Shown here piece by piece: positions 6,409 to 34,906 of a DNA stretch of 35,186 nt. The position numbers and the translations under genes were made by a program. The first letter of the stretch is position 1. Each line of letters begins with the position of its first letter. Source of the DNA: Prevotella sp. (lineage in GTDB: Bacteria; Bacteroidota; Bacteroidia; Bacteroidales; Bacteroidaceae); NCBI GenBank assembly GCA_017524385.1, contig JAFWSS010000126.1, positions 1 through 35,186 on the forward strand, given 5' to 3'. Under the pieces are notes generated by a model. The model had not been told where the DNA came from and ran no database searches. It saw only the letters and a program-made list of their open reading frames with translations.

Positions 6409-6486
6409 GTGACGGGTGATGTGACGGGTGTTGTGACGGGTGTTGTGACGGATGTTGTGACGGGTGATGTGACGGGTGATGTGACG
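6409..6486 (+). repeat. 12-bp minisatellite GTGACGGGTGNT, six units plus a partial
   Basis: Six consecutive 12-mers (6409-6480) share GTGACGG(G/A)TG(A/T)T, followed by a partial unit GTGACG. Each unit encodes Val-Thr plus two variable residues. The variation is mainly in the last three bases. Confidence 0.85.
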
Positions 6487-6558
6487 TTTTTCGACACGAG
6501 TAAATCAGTCTCAACATCCTGTAATTCAGTCAGATATGAATGTGGTAGTTTTGAGGGT

Positions 6559-6642
6559 GTGACGCTCGATGTGACGCTCGATGTGACGCTTGATGTGACG
6601 GTCGTTGTGACGCCTTTTGTGACAGCAAATGTGACAAGTAAA
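6559..6642 (+). repeat. Second 12-bp minisatellite GTGACGCTCGAT, seven decaying units
   Basis: Seven 12-mers begin at 6559. The first three are nearly identical (GTGACGCTCGAT) and the later ones drift while keeping GTGAC(G/A). The array starts 150 bases after the first one, so the VT reading frame is preserved between arrays although the 12-bp phase is not. Confidence 0.8.
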
Positions 6643-11764: not shown

Positions 11765-11770
11765 ATCTAA

Positions 11771-11957
11771 GAGGAGTTAAAGAGGAGTTAAAGAGGAGTT
11801 AAAGAGGAGTTAAAGAGGAGTTAAAGGGGAGTTAAAGAGGAGTTAAAGGGGAGTTAAAGAGGAGTTAAAGGGGAGTTAAAGAGGAGTTAAAGGGGAGTTA
11901 AAGGGACATATGTCTGCTTGTTTCGGGGAGTTAAAGGGACATATGTCTGCTAGTTTG
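11771..11957 (+). repeat. 11-bp tandem repeat G(A/G)GGAGTTAAA with a 33-bp higher-order end
   Basis: Twelve perfect 11-bp units occupy 11771-11902. The first five are GAGGAGTTAAA, then GGGGAGTTAAA and GAGGAGTTAAA alternate, giving a 22-bp order. After 11902 a 33-bp pattern takes over: GGGACATATGT, CTGCTTGTTTC, GGGGAGTTAAA, then GGGACATATGT again. The palindrome GACATATGTC recurs at 11905 and 11938, exactly three units apart. Each unit has a TAA, and because 11 is not a multiple of three, stops fall in all three plus frames, so the array is not coding. It lies between convergent genes. Confidence 0.9.
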
Positions 11958-17959: not shown

Positions 17960-17968
17960 TGGTGGAGC

Positions 17969-17976
17969 CAAAATTA
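17969..17976 (-). promoter_or_regulatory. Minus-7 box of the dynamin/DUF697 operon
   Basis: TAATTTTG on the minus strand ends 10 bases before the ATG at 17959, giving a predicted leader of only about five bases. No clear TTTG box is seen 19-21 bases upstream. Confidence 0.5.
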
Positions 17977-18081
17977 AATAAAAAAGTGCATTTATGAACG
18001 TGACGAAGACACAATTTAAGTTTTTTTTGTGGAATGGTAAAAATATATGTTCTTTCACGCTCATATGTTTCATTTTTTTCC

Positions 18082-18089
18082 TAAATTTG
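18082..18089 (+). promoter_or_regulatory. Minus-7 box of the YiiX-like gene
   Basis: TAAATTTG matches TAnnTTTG exactly and ends six bases before the ATG at 18096, predicting a leaderless or nearly leaderless transcript. The upstream TTTG box is not evident. Confidence 0.5.
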
Positions 18090-18095
18090 CCACGG

Positions 18096-18734
18096 ATGAA
18101 AACAAAACATCGGCGTTTCGCTTTTTTTTGCCTTGCAGCCATCCTGGTTATTGTCATTATGGCTCGCGCCTGTTCAGGCACCGGTAAGTCGCGATGCATC
18201 TTGCCTGGTGATTGCACGTTGCAAACCGGCGATGTGGTGTTCAGGCGAGGAAGTGGTGTGACCAGCCGCACTGTTATCGCACTTGACCAAAAGGGTGAAT
18301 ATTCCCACGTGGGCATCGTGGTGGATTCCGCTGGTGTGAAGATGGTGGTTCATGCCGTCCCTGGTGAACCTGACTATGAGGGTGACCCCGACCGTGTGAA
18401 GATGGATACACCGGAAACCTTCTTCTCCTCTGTCTATGCCCAGTTGGGGGAGGTTTGCCGGCCAAAGGATTCCCTTGTGGCATGCAAGGCGGCGGAAGAG
18501 GCGTTGAAGATTTATCGTCGTAACACGCTTTTCGACCATGACTATGACGACCGCGACACCACACGTATGTACTGCACGGAACTGGTGGTGCATGCCTTCC
18601 AAAAGGCAGGAGTAGGTTTGGTGGGGGAGGAGAGGCATCGGGTGAATGTTCCCATATTGGAGGTGGAATGCATGTTCCCCTCTGACTTGTTGAATTCCGA
18701 CTACTTGGAATCTGTTGCAGGCAAGTTCCATTGA
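18096..18734 (+). CDS. YiiX/DUF830-type permuted papain-like cysteine hydrolase, exported or membrane-anchored
   Basis: The ATG at 18096 gives 212 residues beginning MKTKHRRFAFFCLAAILVIV, a signal or anchor sequence. An earlier ATG at 17994 would lie upstream of the minus-7 box and is rejected. The core shows LQTGDVVFRRGSG, then EYSHVGIVV with the candidate catalytic His71, and TRMYCTELVVHAFQKAG with the candidate Cys160. The order His before Cys is the circularly permuted NlpC/P60-papain arrangement of the YiiX/YebB family (Peptidase C92). Members are thought to be amidases or acyl-hydrolases acting in the cell envelope; the substrate is unknown. The cysteine at MARAC is not in a standard lipobox. 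The lipoprotein gene follows 47 bases downstream. Confidence 0.82.
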   Translation: MKTKHRRFAFFCLAAILVIVIMARACSGTGKSRCILPGDCTLQTGDVVFRRGSGVTSRTVIALDQKGEYSHVGIVVDSAGVKMVVHAVPGEPDYEGDPDRVKMDTPETFFSSVYAQLGEVCRPKDSLVACKAAEEALKIYRRNTLFDHDYDDRDTTRMYCTELVVHAFQKAGVGLVGEERHRVNVPILEVECMFPSDLLNSDYLESVAGKFH

Positions 18735-19327: not shown

Positions 19328-19335
19328 TAAATTTG
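19328..19335 (+). promoter_or_regulatory. Minus-7 box of the giant-protein cluster
   Basis: TAAATTTG matches the TAnnTTTG consensus. A TTTATG about 20 bases upstream (near 19309) could be a poor minus-33 box. A start just downstream leaves a leader of about 135 bases before the ATG at 19473. This is the only good promoter found before the six-gene cluster. Confidence 0.5.
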
Positions 19336-19472: not shown

Positions 19473-22400
19473 ATGACATTTATGAAGAAAAAGTATCACG
19501 AACATTTACGGGTCGGATGGTTTGCCCTGTTGCTCACCATCTTGGCCACTGCTTGGCCCGGCGGCATCCATGCTGAGAACTGGGTCGGACAGCCCGGAAA
19601 TTTCACCATCCGGCAAGAGGCGGAAGGAGTGTTGAGATTCGAACTTCCAGTCTATGACCAGGAAGGCTCCGACACCTGGATTACTACTGGAAAGATTTTC
19701 TTTGAAGGACCAGGTGTGTCGAAAAGTCAGTTTATCGAATGGTATGCCCATAACTACAACAATGACATACCTTCCGGCCAGAAATATACAAACACCCGTG
19801 TCAATTTGCAGGTTGAAGGAACTGCTACGGTGATACGTTCAGAGAATTCCTCGTATCCCGATAGCGACATCGAACTGAACAAAGGTGCTGAAAATTACTT
19901 CAACACATGGCGTTATGCACAAACTGAGCACATGGTCATGGTGCTCAACTGGAAGGTGCCACTTGAGTTGAGGGGAAAGACGCTGACCTTTTCTTTCGAC
20001 GTGAAAGGCAAGGGAAATGGAAATTATCAAAACATCTATACCATCAACGTACCGCAGAAGACCATCGACATGATGGCTGCACCCACGGTGATGAAACCCA
20101 TGGTGACACAGGCCATGGTGATGGAGGATGCTGAGTACCAAGGCTATCTTGTTGTGCCTTGGATGATCCCCGTAGATTCCTCAAAAGTCACCAAAGTGTG
20201 GTATAAATACAAGAATGGCAATGGTAACTACAGAACACAGGATTTGGAAACCAATTCTTCCGGCTTTGCCAAATTGTATCCTGACGATGCCTACCGAGAG
20301 TTCCAGGTCATCTGTGATTACATTGACACCGAAGGCAACCAGATGACTGGTATTGCAAGCGACCCCGAGGACATCTCCATGATACACAGGGCGGAAGATT
20401 TCAAGGCCAAGGCGAAGAATGACGCAAAGGCCACCGTCAACATTTCATGGAATGTGAAAGAGACGGAATATGAAGACTTCATGGAAGGAGATGTGTTCCA
20501 AATACAAAGGTCGATGACCGGTAGGGATGAAGACTTTGTGGACTTGGGCTTCGAAATGTACGAGCAAGGGAAGGGACAATACGCTTATGTTGACTCCACG
20601 CTTGTTGAAGCACTTCGGACCTACAATATCGACCAAGCAACAGGAAAGGTCGATGTGTCCTACCGCATCCGACGTGGCGTTTCCAGCCTTTGGGGCTGGG
20701 AATGGGGGAGAGCCTACAACCCCACGGTGGCCAAGGCAAGCTTGGAAGGCCAGAAACCAATCAAACTGATGGAGGTGAGTGACGCATCCACCAACTGGGT
20801 TAGCAAGGATGACCGCACCATATACGTCAAATGGCAATATGCCACCGATAATGCTTATGACCTCGTGTGGGACGACAGGGCGGAATTCGAATTGTCCGTG
20901 TTGATGTACAACCGGGATAATGAGTTGGTCGATTCCATCATCTATGATATTTCTGAAAGTGAAAAGGCTGCAAAGAGAATCAACCTTACACTGCCTCGCT
21001 CTTGTGTTACATATAAATTGTTCTTCCACACCAAGAAAGGCGATTCGCCCATCCCTTATGTAGGATTTGTGCCCGTGGCATCTGCTGAGGATTGGGAAGT
21101 CGTGGCGAAGAGGGTGCTCAATGGCGACAAAGACATCAAGGTGTCGCTTGTCTCGAACATCCAGTTGCCTGAGAATTTCACGCCTTTAGGAAAGGATTTC
21201 TATACTCCTTTCGAAGGAACAATCAATGGCAATGGATTCACCATCACCATTGATGCACAAAAGCCGCTGATCACCTATGCCAACAACATCACCGTGCAAA
21301 ACCTTATCATCGACGGACGCTTCACCTGCATGAGGGGCTCGGCGTTGGCCAAAGAGATTTACAATAGTGAGATCAAGAATTGTATCGTAAAGGTGGATTT
21401 CACCAACGAGAATTATTACATTCCTGAATCCACATCGGAGCATGAATTCAATGGTCTCTCTGTATTCTCCATGGAATCGTATGATGTGAAATATAGCAAC
21501 TGCCTTTTCACGGGAAAGATTCCAGATGTCTATTACTGGTATGGCTTTGATGCAAAACCAAACTCCAAAACCAGCTTCTACAGTTGTGTGAATGCACCGG
21601 AAGAGTGCAATGCCGGATCAAGCAATTATGACTTCTATCAAGATAGAAATGTCCATAATTTGACAATGCAGAATTGCTTCTATTCCTCCACATCACATAT
21701 GAACCATCAGGAAGCTTCAGAACTGCCTGAAGACGTGAACGTGCTCTTAAGATACCTGGGTAAAGACTGGATGGCGTGCACCGAACAACCGGGTGTCAAA
21801 CCCATCATGACCCAGTCAAGGAACATGGATGGCACTTCATACGAGGTTTACAATTGGGACAATGAAAAATTCTACTTCGAGTCTTCTGGCAAGGTGTTGA
21901 AGAACTCCCTTGTCGCCCAGACCCGTCATAGCAGTGTCTATCTCACTTGGGATACCGACGGTGGCCCCATAGACTATTTCCAGGTCATGCGTCGAGAGAA
22001 AAACAGTAAATCATGGACCATAGTGGAACCCAACCTTGCCGAGATGTCCTATGAAGACACATCCGTGTCGCCCATTATCGATTATATATATAAGGTGCGC
22101 TCCGCTGTTGACTGCGAGGGCACACACTATGAAGAGACCGATTCGGTGCCAGGTGCCTGCAAGCATGTCGGAAAAGTGGAAGGATACCTGCGTTACATGG
22201 ATGGAACCGCCGTTTCCGAAATGGAAATCATTGTCCAACGCGACGGACAGACGGTGGCACATACCTACACCGACATCAACGGACACTATGTGATTGATGA
22301 CATACCATACAACGGACAGCCTTCCATCACCTACACCGTCGCTCCCATCAGCAACCCGCAGATACATGGAACGGTTACGTTTGAGAAAGGCTCACGCCAA

Positions 22401-25400
22401 GTCACCTTCAATGAAAAATCCAACTATACAGAACTTCCAGACTTCGTAGTCACCTCTGGTGTGACTTTCTCGGGATATGTGTTCTACGAGGGTACCAAGA
22501 TTCCTGTAAGGGGTGTCAACTTCATGGTCAACAACAGGCAGGTGGGCACTGCATCTGGTTCAAGTCTGGAGACCGACCACGATGGAAAATTCTCCTTCTA
22601 TGTGCCCACGGGCATCGACTTGGAAATCAAACCTGTCATGGCTGGACATAAGTTCGAAGACACACAGGTTTACAACCATCTGTTCACCCAAAAGGTGGAT
22701 GAGTATTTCTTCTATGACGACACCAAGGTGAAGCTCATCGGGCGCATGGTGGGTGGCATGGACCAAGGCTCTCTGCCGCTCGACAACAGTCTCTCACGCA
22801 ACAACCTGGGTGACAACCTCACGATGACCCTCTCACTGGAAGGCGACAATGGTTCGCAACTCGTCTATGACGTGCTCAACCCGTCAAAGACCGAGCGTGA
22901 CACCGTGTTCATCCATAATTCCCACGACGGGAAGACCTACAAGACTTCCATGCACTCCACTCGTCGGCAAATCACCATTCATCCCGACCAGACCTCAGGT
23001 GAGTATGTCGTCTATCTCCCGCCGGTGAAATGGAAGGTGCAGCATCTGGCATGTTCCGGTTACCCGACACTCTTCCCCGAAGGGAAGATCAGCGACGTCA
23101 TCGACCTCACCGACGCGCTCAACATGGATACAGTCATCGTGGAAGGAGATTTCCTCATCCTCTCCGGCAAGGAGGTCGTCCATGACCCCAAGGTGATATC
23201 AAATGCCATCTATAACTGTATCTACCACACGCCCACGCTGCTCACTTACAAGCAGATGGGTATGGACAATTTCGGTTACTTCGGCGACTTGAATTATGTC
23301 GCTCGCAATATGTCGGGCGACAAGGTGACAGTCCCATTGGTTTATCAGGTGGAAACACGCCCCAACTACCCCAATGACACCACAGTCGTCATGCGGACGA
23401 AGTACACCTTCGACTATCCGGTTTTCAGCATCGAGAAGAAGTACCCCTTCCGCATAGCTGCCGTGGAGAAATATTATTGGAACAACAATCTCTCCAGCGA
23501 CACGGTTGATGTCGTCAGGCTCAGTGGTGGCAAGGTTACCATCCACAATGGCATGGTCGGTTCTACGCATAAGGAAACAGTCGAACTCGACTCCATCGGA
23601 CAGGCCATCGTCAAGATTGGAGCAGAGAAGATACCTTACCTGCTCACCCAGAAGGATGCCTTGCGCACTGTCAATATGACGCTGGAAAGGGATGGCACCA
23701 TGTATGAGGCTGAACCCTTGCGGGCTTACGTCTTCAACATTTATCCAATGAAGAACGGGACCGACATCCTCAGTGTCAACCAACCCGTACTTGTAGATAT
23801 CCTTCGCGACCCGCCGGGAAGCGGAAGCTCCGCCAAACTTAGCAAGGGCTCCACGCTCAAATACTCCTATTCCATGGATATGAATTGGGCGGCAGGACTT
23901 GAGTTCTCCATCAAGAAAGGCACCGCACTGGCCTCCTTCTATGGAGCCGTGGCGGCACCGATGGGCGCCGGTGTGACTTCAGGTGTCAACACAGGAGCCG
24001 AAACATCCTTCGAAGTAGGCATCAACCTTGTGTTCTCCGGGAGTGGCAAACGTGCTTTCGAGTATTCCATGACAGCCACCGAAGACATTTCCACCAATAG
24101 CTCTGGCGACGTAGTGGGTGCCGACGGCGACGTGTATATCGGCGTCGAGCAAAACATTGTGGTGAAGCCTGCGTACACCATCAGGGCCATCCCCGACAGT
24201 CACTTCAAGCAGATGGGTGGACAGCTGGCCGCCAACCGCATGGTGGAAATCGCACAAGGTACGGATGAGAACGACTCCATCTATCACCTCGTACGCGATG
24301 AGTCGCTTACCTATGGACCGACCATCAAGTCGTCATTCCACCACTCTCAATTGTATATCATCTCCACCCTCATTCCAGAATTGGTCAACCAATGCAAGTC
24401 GTTGATGTTCACAGGTACCATGGCAGAGGCCAAGGCACAAGCCGACTACACGGGCAAGCCCGTCTATCTGGCTCTCGTCAGCCCGGATGATGAGGAACAC
24501 TTCGGAGTGATGAACAAGAAAAACGGCCAATACTACCGTTACACCAGCACCATGCCCGACGAGGAAGGCATGAACTACCGCATTGTGATGCCATCCGGTG
24601 CCAAGCCCGAAGAACTCGTCGATGAGGTGCAGCAGTATTGCGCCAGCCTCCAGTCTTGGATTGGCATGATCGCACAGAACGAAGGTGAGAAACTGTCTGC
24701 TACCGAACTGGTCAGCAACTACGTCGTCGATGGCGGCATGGGAGACGTCAATTATGAAGAGGAATACAGTAGCGAATACTCTTGCATGAACTCCATGGTA
24801 TGGCCTGTATCAGGACTCACCGATGAATATTTTGACAGCACGGGTGCAAATACCGCCCTCACCATCGTACAGGTGGTCGGGCCTGTTGTCGCCAAGTTCC
24901 TTGGCAGCATCTTGAGTGCTTCAACGGGGAGTATCAATTCCGGCTCCGAAGTAGGGGCGAAAGTGGAATTCATCGGAGCGCTCTTCGAGTTCGGACTCGT
25001 ACCGGCACTCTCATATGACGTCAAACCAGAATGGGAAACCACCAATTCCTATAGCCGCAAGGAGAGTTTCTCCATCAGCATGGACCTCAAGAGCCATCTG
25101 AGTGTCGATGTCTATCGTGTGAAGAACGAACCTCCCAAAGACTTGGCGAATGGCGCATTGGATGTTTGCACCAGCAATAACTTCTACGACCAGGTGGAAT
25201 ATAATGAAGACTACCTCAAGCGTCATCTCGACATGGACGATTTACGATACTCCAGGGGCTTTGTCTATCGCACACGCGGTGGTGCCACCTGCCGTCCGTG
25301 GGAGGATGAGCGCAGGACACTCTTCTATCAGCCGGGACAAATTCTCGATGAGGCCACCAAGAAGATAGAGAACCCGGGCATCAAGCTCGACAAACAATCC

Positions 25401-28400
25401 ATCAGTGGTGTGCCACATAACGAACCGGCTCGTTTCAAGATTTATCTCACCAATGAGACACAGCAGCCGGAAAACACCTACGACTACTACCATCTCTACA
25501 TGGAAGAGGCAACCAATCCCAAGGGTGCCAAACTCATGGTTGACGGCATGCCGCTCACAGGTACTGGACGTGTCGTCAAGGTGCTGCCCGGAGAGGTGAC
25601 TGAGAAAGTGCTTGAGGTATATGCAGGAGAAGATTTCGATTATGAAAACATCGTCATCGGCCTCAGTAGCGTGGAAGGTGAGAAATTCGCTGACAGCGAA
25701 GCTTCCTTCGACGTGCATTACCTCCGTGAAGCAGGTTATGTCAACATCTCGACACCGGGTGACAAGTGGATTCTCAACACCGATGCACAGTACGACGAGA
25801 AGTTCGGCTACTTCCTTCCCGTGGTCATCGACGGGTTCGACAAGCATCAGAAGAATTTCGACCACATCGAGTTCCAATACAAGGAAACCACTCGTGGAGA
25901 CGAGTATTGGACCAACCTATGCTCCTATTATGCCAGCGACTCGCTCTATACTTTGGCCAATGGCGTGAAAGAGATGATACCAGAAAACGGACATATCACC
26001 ACACAGTTCTTCGGAGAGAAGATTGTCATGGAGAAGGCATACGACCTCAGGGCCGTGCTCTTCTGCCGCAACGGCAATAGTTTCCTCACCTCTTCGTCGA
26101 AGGTGCTCAGCGGTATCAAGGACACAAGGAGACCTCAAATCTTCGGCACACCGGAACCCAAGGACGGCGTCATCGACATCGGAGACGACATCGTGTTCAA
26201 TTTCTCCGAGGACATCGAGTACAACTACTTGAACACTGCCAATTTTGAAGTCAAGGGCGAAGTCAACAACGATTACCTCACCGAGGATGTTTCCATCAGA
26301 TTTGACAACAAGGCCAGCCTTGAAACCTCCGCACGGCGCAACTTCAACGCCAAGGATATCACCCTCGAGGTGATGATCAAACCTGATGACACAGGCAAAG
26401 ACATGCCTATCTTCTCCCATGGCACCAATGGCAAGAAACTACAACTCTGGTACACTAAGGAACAACAGCTCCGGGCTGTGGTCGATGACAAGGCCTTTAC
26501 TACCGTTGCCACTCTCAAGCCCAATGTCTTCACACCGGTGGCCTTGGTGCTCAGACATCTCACCGAGTCAAAGGAAGACAGCTGCCAGATTGAGCTCTAC
26601 AACGGTGGGACAAGACTCCTTTTAGAAAAATTGGAGGAACCCTACACCAGCACCAGCACCCTCATCTTCGGACGCACCAACGAGGTGGATCGCAACACCA
26701 GCAAATTCTTCCAAGGCAATATGATGGAGGCTCGTTTGTGGTACAGGGCACTTTCGCAAGAACAGCTCAGCAACACCTATGCCAACAAGAGACTCACTGG
26801 ATATGAGCTTGGGCTCATCGATTACTACCCGATGAACGATGGCTCAGGCAACTATGCCACCGACCTCGCACAGGGTGCACATGCCACTCTCTACGACGCC
26901 TCATGGATGGTGCCAAGAGGAATGTCGCTACATATCGACTTCGAGGACAAGGGCATACCGCTCAGTGAAAACTTTATCAATCGGAACGAGTTCGAGGACT
27001 ACACACTGATGTTCTGGTTCCGTACCGATGCCGAAGGACGTGGAGTGCTCATCAGCAATGGTTCGGGAGAAGCCGAAGACAATGGTGCCAAGGATCAGTT
27101 CTACATTGGGTTCGATGCCGAGAAACTCAATTTCAAGTCGAACGGACTCGTGGTCAACGTTCCGGGCGAGTACAGTGACAATCAATGGCATCACTATGCC
27201 ATGACTGTCAACAGGGGACTCAACATGGTCAAGATCCTCGTTGACAACACCCTCAGGGCAACGTTTACAGCCGACCAGCTGGGTGGCATCTCTGGAGGAC
27301 ACCCCATGCTTGGCTCTGCAGTCTATGCGAGGATGGTGGACAGCACTCTTGTCGTTGCCGACACCCGCAACTACTTCAGAGGTTATCTTGACGAAATCTG
27401 CGTCTTCCAACAAGCACTGCCCGAGACACTCATCAAGAGTTATAGTTCCAAGAGCCCGTATGGAGATGAGATTGGACTGGACACCTATCTCTGTTTCAAC
27501 AGGCAGGAAAGGAATCAGAACAATCAACTCGTGACGAGCCCTTATCCTTACAGTTCCAAGATTTACAAGGATCAAAACGGCAACATCATCTATCAGCTGG
27601 ACGAAGCCACAGGGCAACCTACAAACATACCTCAGCGAGACTTCCCATTCGGCAACGGGGTCACTCCTGAGATGATTGTCGCTCATATCGACCAAGACAT
27701 CTCTGCACCCGTGAGACCATACGAGGAGTTGACCAACATCAGTTATAGCTATGTCGGAAAGGGTAACCAAATCTTCTTCAACCTCAACGAGGCGGACGAA
27801 CGCATCAACAAGCGCAACATCTATATCACCGTCAGGGAGATTCCCGACAAGAATGGAAATGCCATGGCGTCGCCAGCCACTGCCTACTACTTTGTGGATT
27901 GCAACCCACTAAGATGGGGACAGCAATACACGGAAAACCACATCGAAAAGGGTGATGAAGGGTGGTTCATGGTGGATGTTGTCAACAACAGTCCTGTGCG
28001 CCACACCTACCACATTGAAAACTGCCCGAGGTGGATGAAATTTGACAAACAGACAGATGTCATCGGACCGAGGCAAACCATCATGCTTGAGGCCACCATC
28101 AGCAAGAACCTCAATGTGGGCACCTACGACGAGGTCATCTATCTTGTCGATGAGAACGGTTTGAGCGAACCACTTGGCGTCACCATCGTCGTGGAGGGTG
28201 AGGAGCCATTGTGGTACGTGGACAAATCCTTGAGGCAATACACCATGAATATCATTGGTCAAGTGGCCATCAACAACACCATTGATGTTGACAAGAACGA
28301 CATCGTCGGGGTGTTCGATGACAATGGGGTATGCCATGGCGTGGCAAACATCGGCAATGGAGACGACGAATTCCTTGTGTACATCAATGTCTTCAACGAT

Positions 28401-29564
28401 ACCAGTGAAAACAAGGATCTTCATTTCAGACTTTGGCACAGTGCAACCGGCAACATGCTGCTGCTCCACACCGATGAGCCAATACAATTCAAGTCTTCCG
28501 GATTGGTGGGTAGTGTAACAAATCCGATCATCCTCAAGGGTGGCACGGAATTTGTGCAAACCATCAACCTGCAGCAAGGTTGGAACTGGGTGTCGTTCAA
28601 TGTCTATGGAGAGAGATTCTTCGACATCAACAAACTCCTCTCCCATTTCCCATGGGAGGAGGATGATATCCTGACCGATAACAATAGCACGGCTGCCTTT
28701 GTCTTCCATGATGGCGAATGGATGGCTTCTGATAATGTGAAAAACTTCAAACTCATGCCTCAGAATTCCTATGCCATCAAGGTGGGCAACGACCTTACAC
28801 TCACCATAGAGGGAACCATCATCCGACAAAGAGATGATCGCACCATCGTCTTGCACAATGGATGGAACGGCATTGGTTACACACCATTGATGAACCTGAC
28901 CGTGCAAACAGCCCTTGATGAATACTCCACCAACTTTGCACAGGATGGCGATATCATCAAGAGCCATGACGAGTTCGCTGTGTTCTCCAAACCTTCCAAT
29001 TCTTCCAAAGGCACGTGGAAGGGTAGCTTGCAGTATATGATGCCAGGTGAAGGCTATATGCTTCTCAGAAACGGAGAAGGCTACGCTGCGTTTGCTTATC
29101 CATTCTTTGAGCCGGGGAGCACCTTCCTCGACGAAGTGGGCACTAATGCTCCTGCCAGGCCCGTGCAAGCCAGGAAAGCCACCACCATGTCGGTGTCGGC
29201 TGTCACCAGTGGTTTGGATTTGATGCCAGGAGACCAATTGCTGGCCTTCGCAGAAGGAGAATTGAGGGGTGCCGTGAAAGCTGCTGAAGACAACGTGTTC
29301 TACATCAGCATCGAGGGCGACGTGCAACAACCACTGTCGTTTGCCATCGAGCGTGAAGGGGACATCATTGCTGTCACACCTGAAATCCTCACCTATAAGG
29401 CCAACGCCGTGGTGGGCACTCCCGATGCGCCGACCAAGATTGACTTTACCGTAAGAGACATTCCCAAGTTCGGATGGTACACCCTCGACGGCTATAAACT
29501 CCAGGGACGTCCCACCAAGAAGGGTGTCTATATCTATAATGGAAAGAAATACGTAATCGATTGA
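19473..29564 (+). CDS. Giant secreted multidomain surface protein (3363 residues)
   Basis: A signal peptide (about 1-35, ending GGIHAE) directs export; the ATG at 19482 (MKKKYHEH) is an alternative start. Recognisable parts in order are: a GLUG-like beta-helix piece near 568-650 (PFEGTINGNGFTI); a fibronectin-III-like stretch near 810-886; two carboxypeptidase-regulatory/Cna-B-like domains near 900-970 and 990-1075; a Gly/Ala/Ser-rich section near 1460-1540; an Ig-like region near 2218-2270; and two LamG/concanavalin-like domains near 2270-2460 and 2485-2660. Late copies of a 'AF...ELRG' repeat lie near 2942 and 3253. The C-terminus, YTLDGYKLQG then KKGVYIYNGKKYVID, resembles a type IX sorting tail. 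No catalytic site is visible, so an adhesin or scaffold role is more likely than an enzyme. It leads a six-gene cluster. Confidence 0.85.
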   Translation: MTFMKKKYHEHLRVGWFALLLTILATAWPGGIHAENWVGQPGNFTIRQEAEGVLRFELPVYDQEGSDTWITTGKIFFEGPGVSKSQFIEWYAHNYNNDIPSGQKYTNTRVNLQVEGTATVIRSENSSYPDSDIELNKGAENYFNTWRYAQTEHMVMVLNWKVPLELRGKTLTFSFDVKGKGNGNYQNIYTINVPQKTIDMMAAPTVMKPMVTQAMVMEDAEYQGYLVVPWMIPVDSSKVTKVWYKYKNGNGNYRTQDLETNSSGFAKLYPDDAYREFQVICDYIDTEGNQMTGIASDPEDISMIHRAEDFKAKAKNDAKATVNISWNVKETEYEDFMEGDVFQIQRSMTGRDEDFVDLGFEMYEQGKGQYAYVDSTLVEALRTYNIDQATGKVDVSYRIRRGVSSLWGWEWGRAYNPTVAKASLEGQKPIKLMEVSDASTNWVSKDDRTIYVKWQYATDNAYDLVWDDRAEFELSVLMYNRDNELVDSIIYDISESEKAAKRINLTLPRSCVTYKLFFHTKKGDSPIPYVGFVPVASAEDWEVVAKRVLNGDKDIKVSLVSNIQLPENFTPLGKDFYTPFEGTINGNGFTITIDAQKPLITYANNITVQNLIIDGRFTCMRGSALAKEIYNSEIKNCIVKVDFTNENYYIPESTSEHEFNGLSVFSMESYDVKYSNCLFTGKIPDVYYWYGFDAKPNSKTSFYSCVNAPEECNAGSSNYDFYQDRNVHNLTMQNCFYSSTSHMNHQEASELPEDVNVLLRYLGKDWMACTEQPGVKPIMTQSRNMDGTSYEVYNWDNEKFYFESSGKVLKNSLVAQTRHSSVYLTWDTDGGPIDYFQVMRREKNSKSWTIVEPNLAEMSYEDTSVSPIIDYIYKVRSAVDCEGTHYEETDSVPGACKHVGKVEGYLRYMDGTAVSEMEIIVQRDGQTVAHTYTDINGHYVIDDIPYNGQPSITYTVAPISNPQIHGTVTFEKGSRQVTFNEKSNYTELPDFVVTSGVTFSGYVFYEGTKIPVRGVNFMVNNRQVGTASGSSLETDHDGKFSFYVPTGIDLEIKPVMAGHKFEDTQVYNHLFTQKVDEYFFYDDTKVKLIGRMVGGMDQGSLPLDNSLSRNNLGDNLTMTLSLEGDNGSQLVYDVLNPSKTERDTVFIHNSHDGKTYKTSMHSTRRQITIHPDQTSGEYVVYLPPVKWKVQHLACSGYPTLFPEGKISDVIDLTDALNMDTVIVEGDFLILSGKEVVHDPKVISNAIYNCIYHTPTLLTYKQMGMDNFGYFGDLNYVARNMSGDKVTVPLVYQVETRPNYPNDTTVVMRTKYTFDYPVFSIEKKYPFRIAAVEKYYWNNNLSSDTVDVVRLSGGKVTIHNGMVGSTHKETVELDSIGQAIVKIGAEKIPYLLTQKDALRTVNMTLERDGTMYEAEPLRAYVFNIYPMKNGTDILSVNQPVLVDILRDPPGSGSSAKLSKGSTLKYSYSMDMNWAAGLEFSIKKGTALASFYGAVAAPMGAGVTSGVNTGAETSFEVGINLVFSGSGKRAFEYSMTATEDISTNSSGDVVGADGDVYIGVEQNIVVKPAYTIRAIPDSHFKQMGGQLAANRMVEIAQGTDENDSIYHLVRDESLTYGPTIKSSFHHSQLYIISTLIPELVNQCKSLMFTGTMAEAKAQADYTGKPVYLALVSPDDEEHFGVMNKKNGQYYRYTSTMPDEEGMNYRIVMPSGAKPEELVDEVQQYCASLQSWIGMIAQNEGEKLSATELVSNYVVDGGMGDVNYEEEYSSEYSCMNSMVWPVSGLTDEYFDSTGANTALTIVQVVGPVVAKFLGSILSASTGSINSGSEVGAKVEFIGALFEFGLVPALSYDVKPEWETTNSYSRKESFSISMDLKSHLSVDVYRVKNEPPKDLANGALDVCTSNNFYDQVEYNEDYLKRHLDMDDLRYSRGFVYRTRGGATCRPWEDERRTLFYQPGQILDEATKKIENPGIKLDKQSISGVPHNEPARFKIYLTNETQQPENTYDYYHLYMEEATNPKGAKLMVDGMPLTGTGRVVKVLPGEVTEKVLEVYAGEDFDYENIVIGLSSVEGEKFADSEASFDVHYLREAGYVNISTPGDKWILNTDAQYDEKFGYFLPVVIDGFDKHQKNFDHIEFQYKETTRGDEYWTNLCSYYASDSLYTLANGVKEMIPENGHITTQFFGEKIVMEKAYDLRAVLFCRNGNSFLTSSSKVLSGIKDTRRPQIFGTPEPKDGVIDIGDDIVFNFSEDIEYNYLNTANFEVKGEVNNDYLTEDVSIRFDNKASLETSARRNFNAKDITLEVMIKPDDTGKDMPIFSHGTNGKKLQLWYTKEQQLRAVVDDKAFTTVATLKPNVFTPVALVLRHLTESKEDSCQIELYNGGTRLLLEKLEEPYTSTSTLIFGRTNEVDRNTSKFFQGNMMEARLWYRALSQEQLSNTYANKRLTGYELGLIDYYPMNDGSGNYATDLAQGAHATLYDASWMVPRGMSLHIDFEDKGIPLSENFINRNEFEDYTLMFWFRTDAEGRGVLISNGSGEAEDNGAKDQFYIGFDAEKLNFKSNGLVVNVPGEYSDNQWHHYAMTVNRGLNMVKILVDNTLRATFTADQLGGISGGHPMLGSAVYARMVDSTLVVADTRNYFRGYLDEICVFQQALPETLIKSYSSKSPYGDEIGLDTYLCFNRQERNQNNQLVTSPYPYSSKIYKDQNGNIIYQLDEATGQPTNIPQRDFPFGNGVTPEMIVAHIDQDISAPVRPYEELTNISYSYVGKGNQIFFNLNEADERINKRNIYITVREIPDKNGNAMASPATAYYFVDCNPLRWGQQYTENHIEKGDEGWFMVDVVNNSPVRHTYHIENCPRWMKFDKQTDVIGPRQTIMLEATISKNLNVGTYDEVIYLVDENGLSEPLGVTIVVEGEEPLWYVDKSLRQYTMNIIGQVAINNTIDVDKNDIVGVFDDNGVCHGVANIGNGDDEFLVYINVFNDTSENKDLHFRLWHSATGNMLLLHTDEPIQFKSSGLVGSVTNPIILKGGTEFVQTINLQQGWNWVSFNVYGERFFDINKLLSHFPWEEDDILTDNNSTAAFVFHDGEWMASDNVKNFKLMPQNSYAIKVGNDLTLTIEGTIIRQRDDRTIVLHNGWNGIGYTPLMNLTVQTALDEYSTNFAQDGDIIKSHDEFAVFSKPSNSSKGTWKGSLQYMMPGEGYMLLRNGEGYAAFAYPFFEPGSTFLDEVGTNAPARPVQARKATTMSVSAVTSGLDLMPGDQLLAFAEGELRGAVKAAEDNVFYISIEGDVQQPLSFAIEREGDIIAVTPEILTYKANAVVGTPDAPTKIDFTVRDIPKFGWYTLDGYKLQGRPTKKGVYIYNGKKYVID

Positions 29565-29569
29565 ACGCA

Positions 29570-30436
29570 ATGAAGAAACATTTGTTCTTGACGGCCATGA
29601 TGGTGGCAGCCCTGTTTTTCCTGGGGGGCTGCCATCATTCCGGCAACCACCCTGACCCTGACCCCGATCCCGATCCCGACAATCCCGTAAATAACACCCC
29701 GCCAAGTCCATGGCTCTCGGTGAATGATATTCCAGATTGGGAGATTGATTGGAACGCCAATGACCCAAGACCCGATTGGAAGGCTCCCGATGTCAGCAAT
29801 TATGAAAGTTGGATGATCATCATGGTGAAAGTACCTGATCCCATTGCTCCTTTTGTTTCCAGTGATGACATGATGGCGGTCTTCATCAATGACGAATTAC
29901 GGGGACTCACTTCCGTGGCATCGGTTATCAGCAGTGATGGTGAGGCAACTGATCAGCACACCTATTTTATAGTAAAGACCTTTGGAAACGTCACAAACAA
30001 GGGAGAGATATTCAGCATAAGGTATTACTCCAGTCAACTACATCAACTCTTCGCTGTATCAACAGAGGAGAAATTCGTTCCAGAAGGAGACTTGGGGGTG
30101 TCCGGAGATTATGTGGCGCCTTTGCTCTTAGGGGCTTCCAAATACCCTGTAATTATGTATTGGTTGTTGGGATTCACCATCGACGAGAAACAGGAAGAGC
30201 CTTTCGAGCCCACCCCTGGCGACTTACTTGCTGCATTTGTGGGAGACGAATGCAGAGGAGTTTCCGTTCTGGGCGGCAGCTTGTTCAACGCCCGGGCGTC
30301 GATCACCGTCTATTCCAAGCAAGAAGGTGAACAGGTCACGCTACGCTATTTCAGTGTGCAGAAAAATGCAATAAGGATCTATGATAACGTGACAACCACC
30401 AAGCCTGGCACCAAGATGTCACAGGTTTCCATATAA
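29570..30436 (+). CDS. Lipoprotein with two 'AF..(E/D)(L/C)RG' repeats, linked to the giant protein
   Basis: The start is the ATG at 29570 (MKKHLFLTAMM), five bases after the giant gene stop; a TTG at 29561 is less likely. Lipobox FLGGC gives Cys21, followed by HH and a PDPDPDPDPD spacer that lifts the domain from the membrane. Two tandem copies of a module of about 100 residues follow: one starts DDMMAVFINDELRG (about residue 103) and one starts GDLLAAFVGDECRG (about 220). Each runs on into strands such as IFSIRYYSSQLHQLF and VTLRYFSVQKNAIRIY. The same module occurs twice near the end of the giant protein (DQLLAFAEGELRG), which suggests that the two bind the same partner or each other. The function is not known. 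Confidence 0.82.
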   Translation: MKKHLFLTAMMVAALFFLGGCHHSGNHPDPDPDPDPDNPVNNTPPSPWLSVNDIPDWEIDWNANDPRPDWKAPDVSNYESWMIIMVKVPDPIAPFVSSDDMMAVFINDELRGLTSVASVISSDGEATDQHTYFIVKTFGNVTNKGEIFSIRYYSSQLHQLFAVSTEEKFVPEGDLGVSGDYVAPLLLGASKYPVIMYWLLGFTIDEKQEEPFEPTPGDLLAAFVGDECRGVSVLGGSLFNARASITVYSKQEGEQVTLRYFSVQKNAIRIYDNVTTTKPGTKMSQVSI

Positions 30437-30454
30437 TTTAAATCCATAAAAAAG

Positions 30455-31669
30455 ATGAAAATAAGAACAATACTGATGGCTTTGTCGCTCATGTCGCTCA
30501 ATGCCCAAGCGCAGGTTTACAATTATGATGTCAACAACGATGGTGAAATCAATGTGTTGGATGTTACACTCCTTGTTGACAGAATCTTAGGTGGGGAGAG
30601 CACTCCGATCCTGTTGCCACTGACTTTCAGTGCCGACCAACAGCCTTACGAACATCCTGACGGACCGGCATACGGCAGGAGAAAGACACAAGAAACCACC
30701 ATTGCGACGCTGAAGGAGTTTTATGTCAATTACACCTATGACAAATATCCAGGTTTCGGCATTTACAGTGCACCAGAATTGAGGACATTTTGGGCTGTTG
30801 ACGAAGGAACAGGGCAAGGAAGATGGTTGGTTGGTGATGGAAACACACCTGGCAACGGCTATTGGCCTTCAGGTGCCGACGCTTCTGTCGATGTGACTTT
30901 TTATGCGTATGCCAATGTGGACATCAACAACTTAAGTTCCGACCATAACGCGATGTTCTTCTGTGATGGTAATACAGGCCAAACCAATAACGGCAAGGTT
31001 GACAAGCCATACATTCATTTCATATTGGATGAAAACGGTCCTGAGACCAAGGATTTGTTGGTGGCCAAGAAGGCTGACAATTGGAACCATTGCAAAGGTC
31101 ACATCTTCTTCCATTTCGAGCACGCTTGTGCTGCGGTGCAGTTCTTCTTGGTCAAGACCCCGAAACTGGCGAATGTGGATGTCATGGTGAAAAAAGCTAT
31201 TCTATACAATGTCAAGAATGATGGCAATTATTTCTTCAATGAAGGATGGAAAGACGTGAAGCATTATGATGAGGATGAAAGGATGAAGTACACCCTGTGG
31301 GATGGAGTTGATGCTTTTCATCCTGTGCCTGATGCAACGGAAGATAAATCAGAGATGTGGCAACTGACCACTTCCACCCAAGCGGAGAGTGACTATTTCT
31401 TCTTCATTCCGCAAGATTTTCCTTCTTGGACAATAACATCACCTATTAACGAAACAACCACCGGTTCATACATTGAATTAGATTGCCAGATTACCCCCAA
31501 GGATGGCAGCAAAGGTTACGAAGGCAAGGCTTACATACCTTTCAGCACCAATTCCCTTACCAACGGCTTCGAAATGGGAAAAGCATATCCAGCCGTCGTC
31601 AGGATGGGCACCAGCATGGTGAAAGCCAATGGGGAGAAAATCTTCAATACAGATGGTACAATCAAGTAG
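30455..31669 (+). CDS. Fimbrillin-like (Mfa-type) secreted protein with an N-terminal dockerin-like motif
   Basis: The 404-residue protein has a signal peptide (1-19, ending AQA-Q). Immediately after it is a single Ca-binding dockerin-type motif, DVNNDGEINVLDVTLLVD (about 25-42), whose Asp/Asn/Asp/Glu spacing fits an EF-hand-like loop. The rest reads like the fimbrillin/Mfa-like family: TFYAYANVDINNLSSDHN, then DLLVAKKADNW, then GHIFFHFEHACAAVQFFLV, VDVMVKKAILYNV and a late YIELDCQITPKDG. These proteins build or cap Bacteroidetes surface fimbriae, but the usual lipobox of pilin precursors is absent here, so this is a secreted variant. It lies 18 bases after the preceding lipoprotein gene. Confidence 0.72.
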   Translation: MKIRTILMALSLMSLNAQAQVYNYDVNNDGEINVLDVTLLVDRILGGESTPILLPLTFSADQQPYEHPDGPAYGRRKTQETTIATLKEFYVNYTYDKYPGFGIYSAPELRTFWAVDEGTGQGRWLVGDGNTPGNGYWPSGADASVDVTFYAYANVDINNLSSDHNAMFFCDGNTGQTNNGKVDKPYIHFILDENGPETKDLLVAKKADNWNHCKGHIFFHFEHACAAVQFFLVKTPKLANVDVMVKKAILYNVKNDGNYFFNEGWKDVKHYDEDERMKYTLWDGVDAFHPVPDATEDKSEMWQLTTSTQAESDYFFFIPQDFPSWTITSPINETTTGSYIELDCQITPKDGSKGYEGKAYIPFSTNSLTNGFEMGKAYPAVVRMGTSMVKANGEKIFNTDGTIK

Positions 31670-31681
31670 ATGAATGAGACA

Positions 31682-31855
31682 ATGAAAAGATATAAACAGC
31701 CATTTGCCGAGATTATTACAGTCATGACAGCCGAGGACCTGCTTCTTGGAGGAAGCGATGACGTGGCTCCCCTCGACCCAGGTGGACAGATTGATGTGGG
31801 AGGTGACGATCCCGACCCCAACCCGGTCAACAGAAGCCTCTGGGACGAAGACTGA
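31682..31855 (+). CDS. Small peptide with double-glycine motif, possible secreted peptide precursor
   Basis: The 57-residue product starts MKRYKQPFAEIITVMTAEDL; an in-frame ATG at 31670, right after the upstream stop codon, is also possible. Positions 1-24 (K-R-Y..P..E...) match, from memory, a large group of short Prevotella/Bacteroides peptides of unknown function, most of which begin MKKYxxPxxE. LLLGG then ends a leader-like stretch, as in double-glycine leaders cut by C39-type transporters. The remaining part is Asp/Pro/Gly-rich (DPGG, GGDDPDPNP) and ends SLWDED. No C39 peptidase or peptide-modifying enzyme is in the window, so export by that route is only a possibility. Confidence 0.6.
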   Translation: MKRYKQPFAEIITVMTAEDLLLGGSDDVAPLDPGGQIDVGGDDPDPNPVNRSLWDED

Positions 31856-31887
31856 GCAAATCTCTTGAAGTCACCAAACCCATCACC

Positions 31888-33663
31888 ATGCAAAACGATA
31901 AGCAACAAAACGTTCTGAAGAGAGGCACTCAGCTTCTTGGAGGTACATACAAAATCTCACGCGTCCTTGGACAGGGTGGGTTTGGCATCACTTATCTGGC
32001 AGAACAAAGCATGCTGAAGAAGTCTTTCGCCATCAAGGAATTCTTCATTCAGAACCTTTGTGCCCGTGATGAGCATTTGAATGTCTATACCCTCACACAA
32101 CCAGGGAGGGTGGGACGCTATCGCAACAAGTTTGTCAAGGAAGCGCAGATGATCGGCCAACTAGACCATCCCGGCATCGTGAAGGTGAGCAACATTTTCG
32201 AGGAGAATGGCACGGTCTATTATGTGATGGAGTTTGTCGAGGGTAAAAGCTTGTCTGAAATCATCAAGAAAACAGGTCCATTGCCGGAAGAGCTAGCCTT
32301 GCATTATATATCAAAGGTGGCGGAGGCTTTGGAATACATTCATCAGCACAATGTCAATCATCTCGATATCAAGCCTGCCAACATCATGGTGAGGCAAAGA
32401 GATGACATGCCCATCCTTATCGACTTCGGTGTTTCAAAGCAGTATGACGAACAGAAGGATGAGACTTCCACCACGCCACCGGGGGTCAGCCATGGCTATT
32501 CTCCTTTCGAGCAATACAATAGGGGAGGAGTGAGCAAGTTCTCACCCCAGGCCGATATCTATTCGTTGGGAGCCACACTATACAAACTACTGACAGGCGA
32601 CACGCCGCCAGACGCCTCAGACATCCTCAACAACGGGGTGCCTGCCATGCCCGACACCATCTCTCCGAACATCAGGAAAAGCATAGAAAAGGCAATGCAA
32701 CCCAAAGTCGTTGACCGACCAAGGAACATCCGGGAATTCATCGATATGATAAGTCTGGGACGCACCGGAGTGGTCACAACTGTTCAAGAAAATGGGAATC
32801 CAGTCTTGGAAGATGGGTCGGGCGAGCTTGTTAACGAATCAAAGCCCGAAACACCTCAGGTCTTGTCGGCCAACGAGATGTACGAGTTGGGTGAAGATTC
32901 ATATTATGGCAGGAATGGGAAGCCACAGGACTACGCCGAGGCAGTGAAATGGTATCTAAAGGCTGCGGAGCAAGAGCACGTAGATGCGCAAAGCAGTCTT
33001 GGGTACATGTATGAAAACGGCATGGGCGTGGCAAAGGATTACAAGGCCTCTGAGGAATGGTATCGCAAAGCAGCGGAAAAGGGTGATGCCGATGCCCAGT
33101 ATAGTCTTGGAAATCTCTACCTATCCGGCCAAGGTGTGGCTCAAGATTACTTTGAGGCCGTGAAATGGTATCGCTTGTCGGCAGAGAAGGGTGATAATGA
33201 AGCACAATATGAACTTGGTGAATTGTATGAATCAGGTTTGGGCGTGGACAAGGATGTAGAAGAGGCTATAGGATGGTATGGCAAGGCTGCTGATAGTGGA
33301 TATGTCGAAGCCCAGTCCAAGCTTGGCCGCTTGTACCTTTATGGGGAAGGTGTTTCCACGGATTACGCCGAGGCTTTGAAATGGTTTCTCAAGGCAGCCG
33401 GTCAAGAAGATGCTTTCGCACAAAATAGCCTTGGACACATGTTCCATTATGGCAAAGGGGTGGCACAGAATCTACCCCAAGCCATGTATTGGTATAAAAA
33501 GGCGGCAAATCAAGGTGATGAACAAGCTCAGTACAACATTGGTGTGCTTTACGAAAATGGCTTGGGTGTGGAAAAAGACCTGTCGGAGGCCAAGGCTTGG
33601 TATGAGAAATCGGCTGCACAAGGCTATGATTCCGCCATCGAAAAAATGAGAAAACTAAAGTGA
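31888..33663 (+). CDS. Hanks-type serine/threonine protein kinase with seven Sel1 repeats
   Basis: The kinase domain (about 20-290) has every catalytic feature: glycine loop LGQGGFG (27-33), ATP-anchoring Lys50 in AIKE, catalytic loop HLDIKPANIM with Asp160, DFG at 179-181, and a PQADIYSLG helix. The HRD arginine is replaced by Leu (HLD), which is tolerated in active kinases. A linker without a membrane span leads to seven 36-residue Sel1/TPR-like repeats (about 331-582; AQYSLGNLYLSGQGV...), a protein-binding solenoid. It is probably cytoplasmic, and the repeats may select its substrates. The gene sits among genes for exported proteins, 32 bases after the small peptide gene. No phosphatase or FHA gene is nearby. 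Confidence 0.93.
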   Translation: MQNDKQQNVLKRGTQLLGGTYKISRVLGQGGFGITYLAEQSMLKKSFAIKEFFIQNLCARDEHLNVYTLTQPGRVGRYRNKFVKEAQMIGQLDHPGIVKVSNIFEENGTVYYVMEFVEGKSLSEIIKKTGPLPEELALHYISKVAEALEYIHQHNVNHLDIKPANIMVRQRDDMPILIDFGVSKQYDEQKDETSTTPPGVSHGYSPFEQYNRGGVSKFSPQADIYSLGATLYKLLTGDTPPDASDILNNGVPAMPDTISPNIRKSIEKAMQPKVVDRPRNIREFIDMISLGRTGVVTTVQENGNPVLEDGSGELVNESKPETPQVLSANEMYELGEDSYYGRNGKPQDYAEAVKWYLKAAEQEHVDAQSSLGYMYENGMGVAKDYKASEEWYRKAAEKGDADAQYSLGNLYLSGQGVAQDYFEAVKWYRLSAEKGDNEAQYELGELYESGLGVDKDVEEAIGWYGKAADSGYVEAQSKLGRLYLYGEGVSTDYAEALKWFLKAAGQEDAFAQNSLGHMFHYGKGVAQNLPQAMYWYKKAANQGDEQAQYNIGVLYENGLGVEKDLSEAKAWYEKSAAQGYDSAIEKMRKLK

Positions 33664-33721
33664 GCATAATGAATGTAGGAAAAGGATGAGTTTCTTCTGT
33701 ATTAATGAAAAAAACACGAGA

Positions 33722-34906
33722 ATGAACCAAATCAAACGACTATTGACGATGATGACCATGCTGATGGTCGCCGCTGTTTACGTTTCTGCACAAGATGATT
33801 GGGATGCTTACACCAAAGCGGTGCAATGGTATGCCGACCGAAGCAAAGGGATAGTCTTGCGTTTCGAGGGGCTTCGTTCTAATACCGGCATTCTTCCCCA
33901 GAAGTATTGCGTGTTCTCCTATGCACAGGCGAAACCGTTGGGATACGCCATGGTGGTATCCACGTCCGACGAGAGCGATATGGTCATGTACACTCCTGAC
34001 GGTGATGGCATCAAGGCGCAAAGCGTGAACAAGGATGTGCTGCCAGAGGAGAATTTATATTGGGAATCCATCACCTATCTTGGACGCAACTGCACCTATT
34101 CCACCGACATCACGCTCAAGGACAGGCCGTTGCCAGTGAGGACGCTCAGCAAGAGTAAAAACGCTTTCGAGGTCGTCATTGAGGAAGGTGAGGAGATTCC
34201 CGACATCAAGGCATACAACCAGATGATTTTCAAGCCGCACAAGAACGCTGTGAGGCTTGCCAGCCAAAACGTGGTGAGGGAGACTGATGATGATGGCAAC
34301 ATCACCAAGAACCAGCAGGAATATGAGTTCAAACTGACCACACCATCGGTGGTCAGCAAGATGTTCCGTGGATACGAAGACGGGGAGGCTTCCCCCTGGG
34401 TGGTGAAATCCAACTTCTTTGACAACCACACCCTGTTGCAGTACAGCAGGTGGAAGGAGGGCGAACCTGTGAAGAAAGCCAGCAAGGAGGTGTGCAGGGC
34501 CATCACCGACTATTATCAAGGATGGCGCATCAAGGACACCCGTTGGCTCGCTACTACCGAATCGGGTGATCGCTCGTTCTATGCCGTGCAGTTCGAGATC
34601 AAGGGCACAAGGGCATTGGCAGCGATGGTTTGCTTGGAATATGGCGAGGTGGTCTCCACATGGGAATTTTTGGGCAAAGTGGAGCCTGGCGCTTCCGATG
34701 GTTACCAGTCGATATGGTTTGTCGACGACGAGGGTGACTTCATGGAGCATGCGCCCGAAATCCATTGCATCGTGGCTACAGATGAGGGAATGGAGCTCTA
34801 CGTGCGGCAGTATGGCGGAGAAAGTGTGCAATACTCTATCTTGCGCGAGATGGGCACGGTGTGGATGACGATGCTCACCGACTACTGGATCTACGTTTGG
34901 GACTGA
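33722..34906 (+). CDS. Secreted protein of unknown function, end of the kinase cluster
   Basis: I prefer the ATG at 33722 over 33686 because it gives a standard signal peptide (MNQIKRLLTMMTMLMVAAVYVSAQ). The mature protein of about 370 residues has no domain that I recognise. It has repeated strand-rich segments (YCVFSYAQAKPLGYAMVV, RSFYAVQFEIKGTRALAAMV, GYQSIWFVDDEGDF) and many Trp/Tyr, and ends TDYWIYVWD. There are no lipobox, membrane spans or catalytic motifs. It follows the kinase by 58 bases and is the last gene of the plus-strand cluster; a periplasmic or surface partner is the simplest guess. Confidence 0.78.
   Translation: MNQIKRLLTMMTMLMVAAVYVSAQDDWDAYTKAVQWYADRSKGIVLRFEGLRSNTGILPQKYCVFSYAQAKPLGYAMVVSTSDESDMVMYTPDGDGIKAQSVNKDVLPEENLYWESITYLGRNCTYSTDITLKDRPLPVRTLSKSKNAFEVVIEEGEEIPDIKAYNQMIFKPHKNAVRLASQNVVRETDDDGNITKNQQEYEFKLTTPSVVSKMFRGYEDGEASPWVVKSNFFDNHTLLQYSRWKEGEPVKKASKEVCRAITDYYQGWRIKDTRWLATTESGDRSFYAVQFEIKGTRALAAMVCLEYGEVVSTWEFLGKVEPGASDGYQSIWFVDDEGDFMEHAPEIHCIVATDEGMELYVRQYGGESVQYSILREMGTVWMTMLTDYWIYVWD

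Follow-up and report, generated by a model that had tools for sequence, protein, structure and literature searches.

A predicted four-gene surface-protein cassette of ruminant-gut Prevotella with a giant secreted protein and a companion peptide

Introduction

In Prevotella intermedia, 48 short C-terminal domains (CTDs) of the type IX secretion system (T9SS) have been predicted and cleavage sites determined for five of them; the available passages of that study describe a motif B with a tyrosine and a glycine together with a basic residue, a motif D of the form GxY or GxN followed by an isoleucine, a basic motif E, and a GxN subgroup (PMC11969387). A further described arrangement is that of the SprB-type adhesins, very large proteins with a type B CTD and an adjoining partner gene of the PorP/SprF kind, and the available part of the same source presents T9SS cargo selection and hand-over before the outer membrane as an open question (PMC10202324). 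Here we analyse a stretch of 35,186 nucleotides (nt) from Prevotella sp. (GenBank assembly GCA_017524385.1, contig JAFWSS010000126.1; hereafter the window), in which six consecutive genes encode a giant secreted protein, a lipoprotein, a fimbrillin-fold protein, a small peptide, a Sel1-repeat kinase and a secreted protein without known family (genes 1-6; Table 1). An original prediction, made from the DNA letters, had read these genes as a surface-assembly or peptide-release system under kinase control.

The giant protein resembles the P. intermedia cargo in that its tail carries motifs B, D and E; the available passages of that study mention no companion peptide, nor does the word 'downstream' appear anywhere in its main text, and cleavage sites were determined for five of the P. 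intermedia CTDs, whereas that of the giant is predicted from sequence (PMC11969387). As in the SprB/SprF arrangement, in the parts of its description at hand, a very large protein is encoded next to a partner, but here the giant's tail is short and differs in kind, and a lipoprotein that carries the giant's own module and has no Pfam match takes the partner's place (PMC10202324). Gene 3 shares its fold with the Mfa-like and FimA fimbrillins and their Pfam family is matched by 13 of 24 family members, yet it adjoins a giant with a T9SS-type tail and its product has, by eye, half a dockerin-like motif instead of a lipobox; gene 5, like Hanks kinases with Sel1 repeats, joins a kinase domain to a solenoid, and it is linked to the cassette in two sister genomes only. 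Known kinds of protein account for the domains of the giant, for the fimbrillin and for the kinase, and at the level of titles, abstract openings and a few passages the literature holds no report of the four-gene cassette or of the positional peptide family described below.

Results

Genes 1-4 recur together in related genomes

The conserved core of the giant (alignment A1: 10 sequences, mean column identity 53%) was sought in 398 genomes of the same genus and gave a match at E <= 1e-20 in 98 of them, the window's own genome included. In a first set we read the genes behind 68 giants, 60 of whose loci had been hand-picked from the core matches, mostly the best scoring. Three loci that are broken or run into the end of a contig (L141, L147 and L077) were set aside, a fourth (L091) having been omitted beforehand likewise, and a 149-amino acid (aa) lipoprotein (L160) was counted although a 150-aa cut-off had dropped it. 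The lipoprotein lies behind the giant in 61 of the 65 assessable cases, and a fimbrillin, as identified by BLAST, in 25. A second, overlapping set comprised the best 80 of 308 relatives, from named genomes; 13 with a giant ending at or near a contig end were set aside, and those offering little room, or with a broken giant (L345), stayed in the count as misses. Of the 67 assessable giants, 60 are followed by the lipoprotein, 35 by the fimbrillin, 23 by the peptide and 1 by the kinase (33, 19, 12 and 0, respectively, of the 38 loci new relative to the first set), and wherever the peptide is present it stands behind the fimbrillin (23/23). All gene calls derive from a simple longest-open reading frame (ORF) caller, which missed one kinase paralogue (L062), and three more distant giants of the window's own genome (C201, C107 and C62) are outside the counts. 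The second-set records are assigned to Prevotella, Prevotellaceae, Bacteroidaceae or Bacteroidales, except for two labelled 'bacterium'; 24 of the 80 mention a ruminant or one of its stomach compartments, and RUG isolate names, which we take to denote rumen genomes, are frequent among the others.

These counts support a view of genes 1-4 as a conserved, putative surface-protein cassette of ruminant-gut Prevotella, and with it the proposal of a surface-assembly system for this part of the locus, as the same gene order recurs in many related genomes. The expectation, set out beforehand, that homologues of the genes would be found together elsewhere thus holds for genes 1-4 and comes close to failing for the kinase and gene 6, which are nearly never found there. 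Several loci weigh against so regular a picture: the lipoprotein is missing behind four assessable first-set giants (L116, L117, L155 and L157) and seven second-set giants, none is labelled behind the distant giants C107 and C62 among the contexts listed, and in one first-set locus (L162) a peptide-like ORF stands behind the lipoprotein, not the fimbrillin. At locus L139, another very large gene, of 3556 aa, begins 171 nt behind the fimbrillin, and at L138 a 111-aa ORF shares the start of that gene.

The giant protein ends in a short T9SS-type tail

The last 30 residues of the giant, GWYTLDGYKL..GVYIYNGKKYVID, carry by eye motifs B, D and E of the short CTD, and the tail fits the published description as available to us, including the tyrosine and glycine of motif B, the GxY-Ile of motif D and the basic motif E (PMC11969387). 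SprA is encoded in the same genome (TIGR04189, 2548.9 bits), and an N-terminal hydrophobic stretch, scored by a crude rule, is present in 28 of 34 tail genes and in 583 of 989 other genes. Two results speak against the assignment, in that PF18962, the curated model for type A CTDs, does not match the giant and matches only 1 of 18 tails (E 0.053). The PF18962 model has 75 positions; the short CTDs, in the passages at hand, span 43-55 aa (PMC11969387). The own genome yields 128 tail matches at E <= 1 versus five PF18962 matches over the cut-off, so that most of its tails escape the standard model. Three tails upstream of peptides are of the GxN kind (L245, L250 and L254).

Beyond the domains listed in Table 1, a sequence search of the Protein Data Bank with the giant returned one weak FN3 match, and a PHROGs search gave no match below E 0.19. 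Elsewhere in the window, on the minus strand, positions 3228-4637 encode what is by eye an esterase-like secreted protein with a short-CTD tail of its own (E 3.0e-12), behind which the peptide profile finds no companion peptide.

The lipoprotein shares a module with the giant, and gene 3 has a fimbrillin fold

By hhalign, the first half of the lipoprotein matches the second (99.1%), and the second half matches, besides the partial copy, giant residues 2934-3005 (87.0%); the repeats that the original prediction had noticed in the first two products are hence borne out, with hhalign values of 83.2-90.7% between the giant and the lipoprotein halves. An AlphaFold2 model of the lipoprotein (51 rows; predicted local distance difference test, pLDDT, 83) consists of two tandem beta regions. 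The window lipoprotein has no match in Pfam and does not fit a PorP/SprF-family partner, and a dockerin match occurs in 4 of 51 family members.

The corresponding model of the fimbrillin-fold protein (24 rows; pLDDT 77) aligns best with the Bacteroides fimbrial protein 4qb7 (template modelling score, TM, 0.50/0.59; E value in Table 1), and Mfa4, Mfa2 and FimA follow with E below 1e-4 and lower TM values; the window copy is not among the family members that match Mfa_like_1. A comparable Foldseek search with the lipoprotein model returned no match at E <= 0.001 and FimA-type chains at TM ~0.2, which counts against a surface-partner reading of that protein. By eye, the window fimbrillin is without a lipobox, many relatives have one, and the half dockerin-like motif sits where they carry it. 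This motif, one half-repeat, scores 22.7 bits against a dockerin type I cut-off of 22.9, and some dockerin match is found in 6 of the 24 family members; dockerin-based assembly was consequently rejected, the half motif being below the cut-off and present in few relatives.

A putative companion peptide is tied by position to short-CTD genes

Searches of Pfam and NCBIfam assign the peptide to no family, the best chance matches having E values of 0.067 and 0.087. Its ratio of nonsynonymous to synonymous substitution rates (dN/dS) is 0.29 to sister genome G224 and 0.31 to sister genome G086, and 0.16-0.31 among the three sister copies, and the gene is therefore very likely translated. Across the aligned relatives an N-terminal YxxP is conserved and the remainder is variable. 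The crude rule finds an N-terminal hydrophobic stretch in 1 of 18 peptides; the first 15 residues of these 18 carry a net charge of 0 to +4 and the remainder one of -2 to -11, and the last 14 residues of 34 tails have a mean net charge of +3.5. At E <= 0.001 the peptide profile A3 finds matches in 24 of 60 genomes, namely 24 of 36 from the own genus and 0 of 24 from other genera (one genome each), and SprA is present in 57 of the 60.

To relate peptides and tails across other genomes, we took 28 peptide loci from a longer list of relatives found by sequence, in searches that used no tail (one of them, L243, is in the profile). The gene upstream has a profile tail (E < 0.05) in 21 of these, compared with 17 of 460 background genes drawn from the loci around giants, giants excluded, and the gap between tail gene and peptide is -4 to 33 nt in 17 cases and 137-380 nt in 4. 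As for the remaining seven, two have a GxN tail by eye (L245 and L250), one is the cassette fimbrillin of genome G014 (L243), one has another tail (L255) and three have no detected upstream gene. Within the own genome, a tail gene lies just upstream in 8 of 12 peptide loci, the misses being L201 (tail gene downstream), L204 (preceded by a gene whose end is dockerin-like), L207 and L211. Starting from the tails instead, 9 of 66 tail genes have a peptide within the following 150 nt, compared with 1 of 162 other genes; a loose-pattern count of 11/30 included two spurious ORFs (L230 and L238), and 9 is the count used. In one own-genome locus (G000:C128:10835-11411, L202), three companion-type peptides stand in tandem behind a single short-CTD cargo gene.

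A number of observations count against so tight a link. All nine tail-first cases fall in the top-30 set (9/26; control loci 0/4) and none in the second-ranked set (0/36), and the tail profile drew in part on tails next to peptides, so that the tail-first ranking is biased by peptide-linked cargo; moreover, the sole non-tail case among the 162 is the window's own peptide, behind the fimbrillin. In genome G010, where no SprA was found and 0 of 80 genes have a tail (~3 expected from the background), a peptide-like ORF stands just before a 626-aa lipoprotein-like gene (L396, 9714-11832), from which the peptide family may serve surface proteins beyond the T9SS.

The kinase and gene 6 are neighbours of the cassette

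Gene 5 has by eye a glycine loop, an AIK lysine, HxDxKxxN and DFG motifs, and these together with its seven Sel1 repeats confirm the earlier description of a Hanks kinase with a solenoid. Beyond the window, a kinase follows the cassette only in sister genome G224 (L312 of the second set), that is, at one giant among the 68 of the first set and one among the 67 of the second; G224 has the same six-gene order as the window. In the second sister, G086, whose giant core is 99% identical, the fimbrillin, peptide and gene 6 are consecutive, without the kinase. The relatives of gene 6 (Table 1) include the own genome and one weak case (G001), and among 14 loci besides those of the window and G224 only that of G086 adjoins the cassette. 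We rejected kinase control of the cassette, which the original prediction had favoured, since nearly all cassettes are without a kinase and in G086 gene 6 follows the peptide with no kinase in between; both the kinase and gene 6 appear to be neighbours in this clade rather than required parts. The kinase domain has matches at 18 further places in the own genome, which are not beside giants among the contexts listed; the N-terminal kinase domains at these places are similar (identities reach 68%), and the frames that hold them vary widely in length, from 354 to 880 aa, as though a single kinase domain had been joined to differing C-terminal parts.

Synonymous divergence (dS) from G224 varies sharply along the locus: within the giant gene it is 0.22 over 996 codons before ~28.6 kb and 0.68 over the last 319 codons, followed by 1.03 for the lipoprotein, 0.91 for the fimbrillin, 0.44 for the peptide, 0.71 for the kinase and 0.18 for gene 6, with dN/dS of 0.10-0.29 (kinase 0.10). 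The comparison (window 25607-34903, L104) thus shows a threefold rise inside the giant gene and a fall back in gene 6. Against G086, dS is 0.01 or less for the giant end and the lipoprotein, 0.34 for the peptide and 0.77 for gene 6. The pattern looks as if blocks had been replaced by recombination, the G224 block spanning the C-terminal end of the giant, the lipoprotein and the fimbrillin, and such replacement fits better than diversifying selection of the variable lipoprotein and fimbrillin, which we rejected because dN/dS is ~0.2 while dS is raised relative to G224. Two points fit less well with a block so bounded: the high-dS stretch also includes the kinase, and divergence from G086 begins only at the peptide.

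Layout of the locus

Six same-strand ORFs, seen in the ORF list and translations of the window, confirm the co-directional cluster as first described (Table 1). The lipoprotein ORF opens at 29561, but its most likely start is the ATG at 29570 (gap of 5); gene 6 most likely starts at the ATG at 33722 (gap of 58), matching the 394-aa relatives in G224 and G086, and the peptide may start at 31682 instead of 31670. Of the good promoter proposed for the cluster, a -7-type box before the giant, TAAATTTG, stands, and no -33 box was found at 18-22 nt from it; of the terminator past the cluster end, the perfect stem exists, with its T-run on the minus strand. Elsewhere in the window lie an 11-bp tandem repeat of 12 copies (11769-11903), 12-bp tandem repeats inside ORFs of both strands (6408-6623) and, on the minus strand, a dynamin-like GTPase by eye (16049-18316), which adjoins an ORF with membrane-like stretches (14928-16052).

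Table 1. Features of the window and the evidence for each
Feature	Position	Strand	Evidence
-7-type promoter box TAAATTTG	19328..19335	+	upstream of giant
Gene 1, giant secreted protein, 3363 aa	19473..29564	+	two LamG_3 stretches; carboxypeptidase-regulatory-like domains under curated cut-offs
Giant conserved core, residues 1401-2100	23673..25772	+	family probe
LamG_3 (ConA-like lectin) domain of giant, better of two stretches	26307..26768	+	Pfam PF13385, whole-protein E 3.4e-24
Giant C-terminal module common to lipoprotein, residues ~2917-3014	28221..28514	+	hhalign 90.7% (lipoprotein first half)
Second, partial module copy in giant, residues ~3233-3272	29169..29288	+	hhalign 83.2% (lipoprotein second half)
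Giant C-terminal tail, short T9SS CTD kind	29472..29561	+	tail profile A4, which includes this tail, E 1.2e-14
Gene 2, lipoprotein, 288 aa, two tandem shared-module copies	29570..30436	+	halves aligned by hhalign
Gene 3, fimbrillin-fold protein with N-terminal half dockerin-like motif	30455..31669	+	Foldseek 4qb7, E 2.1e-12
Gene 4, companion peptide, 61 aa, start possibly 31682	31670..31855	+	family A2/A3; dN/dS
Gene 5, Ser/Thr kinase with 7 Sel1 repeats; neighbour outside conserved cassette	31888..33663	+	motifs, genome comparison
Gene 6, secreted protein of no known family, probable start at 33722; neighbour	33686..34906	+	relatives in 17/398 genomes
Perfect stem-loop	35001..35029	-	T-run on minus strand

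Discussion

We consider it somewhat more likely than not that genes 1-4 encode a T9SS-exported giant adhesin, a lipoprotein and a fimbrillin that would dock it at the outer membrane, and a cytosolic companion peptide. The giant would cross the inner membrane by way of a signal peptide and, as its tail and the presence of SprA in the genome suggest, the outer membrane through the T9SS by way of its short CTD; its lectin-like LamG domains may then bind glycans or plant or host surfaces. As it carries two copies of a module that also occurs in the C-terminal region of the giant, the lipoprotein probably serves to dock, stack or anchor the giant protein at the outer membrane, with the fimbrillin-fold protein as a presumed optional structural partner. 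The peptide, which has no recognisable signal sequence, would be a cytosolic companion acting on folding, hand-over or expression of the cargo before export, and the simplest role for such a small cytosolic protein, its gene accompanying each cargo of this kind, would be chaperone-like or in hand-over. More tentatively, and with appreciably less confidence, we suggest that cytosolic micropeptides of ~45-75 aa, one and sometimes three per cargo, behind T9SS short-CTD or surface-fimbrillin genes, could be dedicated escorts or sensors whose acidic C-terminal half holds the basic CTD until export; titles and abstract openings of the T9SS literature report no such micropeptide layer.

These roles have to be weighed against other accounts of the same genes. 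That all six form one functional system, with the kinase controlling surface assembly, would agree with their shared direction, their short gaps, the order kept in G224 and the low kinase dN/dS between the two genomes, but the single cassette with a kinase in either set belongs to that same genome, G086 is without it and the other kinase-domain places lie apart from giants among the contexts listed, so that we regard a six-gene system as unlikely. The cassette might instead be a variant fimbrial operon, the fimbrillin forming the shaft and the giant the tip adhesin, as the fold, with Mfa4, Mfa2 and FimA among its matches, and the Mfa_like_1 matches of its relatives would allow; this seems rather improbable to us given that 32 of 67 loci, some with little contig room, have no fimbrillin behind the giant, while the lipoprotein persists, and that nearly all listed cassettes have one fimbrillin gene (two pieces in L113/L329).

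For the peptide, a comparably doubtful alternative is a precursor of an exported or modified peptide, with a YxxP-plus-LLxGS leader and an acidic, variable core. YxxP is a leader motif of lasso-type precursors, the conserved YxxP does precede a variable remainder, and PqqD-like sequences occur at four places in the own genome, three of them over the cut-off; none of the four shares a contig with a listed peptide match, however, no PqqD/RRE gene lies beside the peptide, and no modification gene was seen by eye in the displayed neighbourhoods of the own-genome peptides. The double glycine that had suggested peptide release is kept in the window and in G086 (LLLGGS) but not in most of the aligned relatives, which include LLLKGS, LLLDGS, LLAGS and LVSGS at this place, and the genome holds one marginal C39 peptidase match, in a 246-aa frame; double-glycine release was accordingly rejected with its motif, and peptide release finds no support. 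Least probable is a cognate immunity protein or antitoxin of the cargo: the peptide is small, acidic past its first 15 residues, directly downstream and variable in the middle, but its N-terminal motif is conserved behind many cargo genes, and the domain searches of the window cargo report domains of the lectin and fimbrillin kinds but none of a toxin.

With genes 1-4 read as a giant adhesin, its docking partners and a cytosolic companion, the giant-lipoprotein pair would be a second adhesin-plus-partner arrangement beside SprB/SprF, in ruminant-gut bacteria, and a set of very small proteins linked positionally to short-CTD genes would, if true, provide a direct, genetically testable handle on T9SS cargo hand-over.

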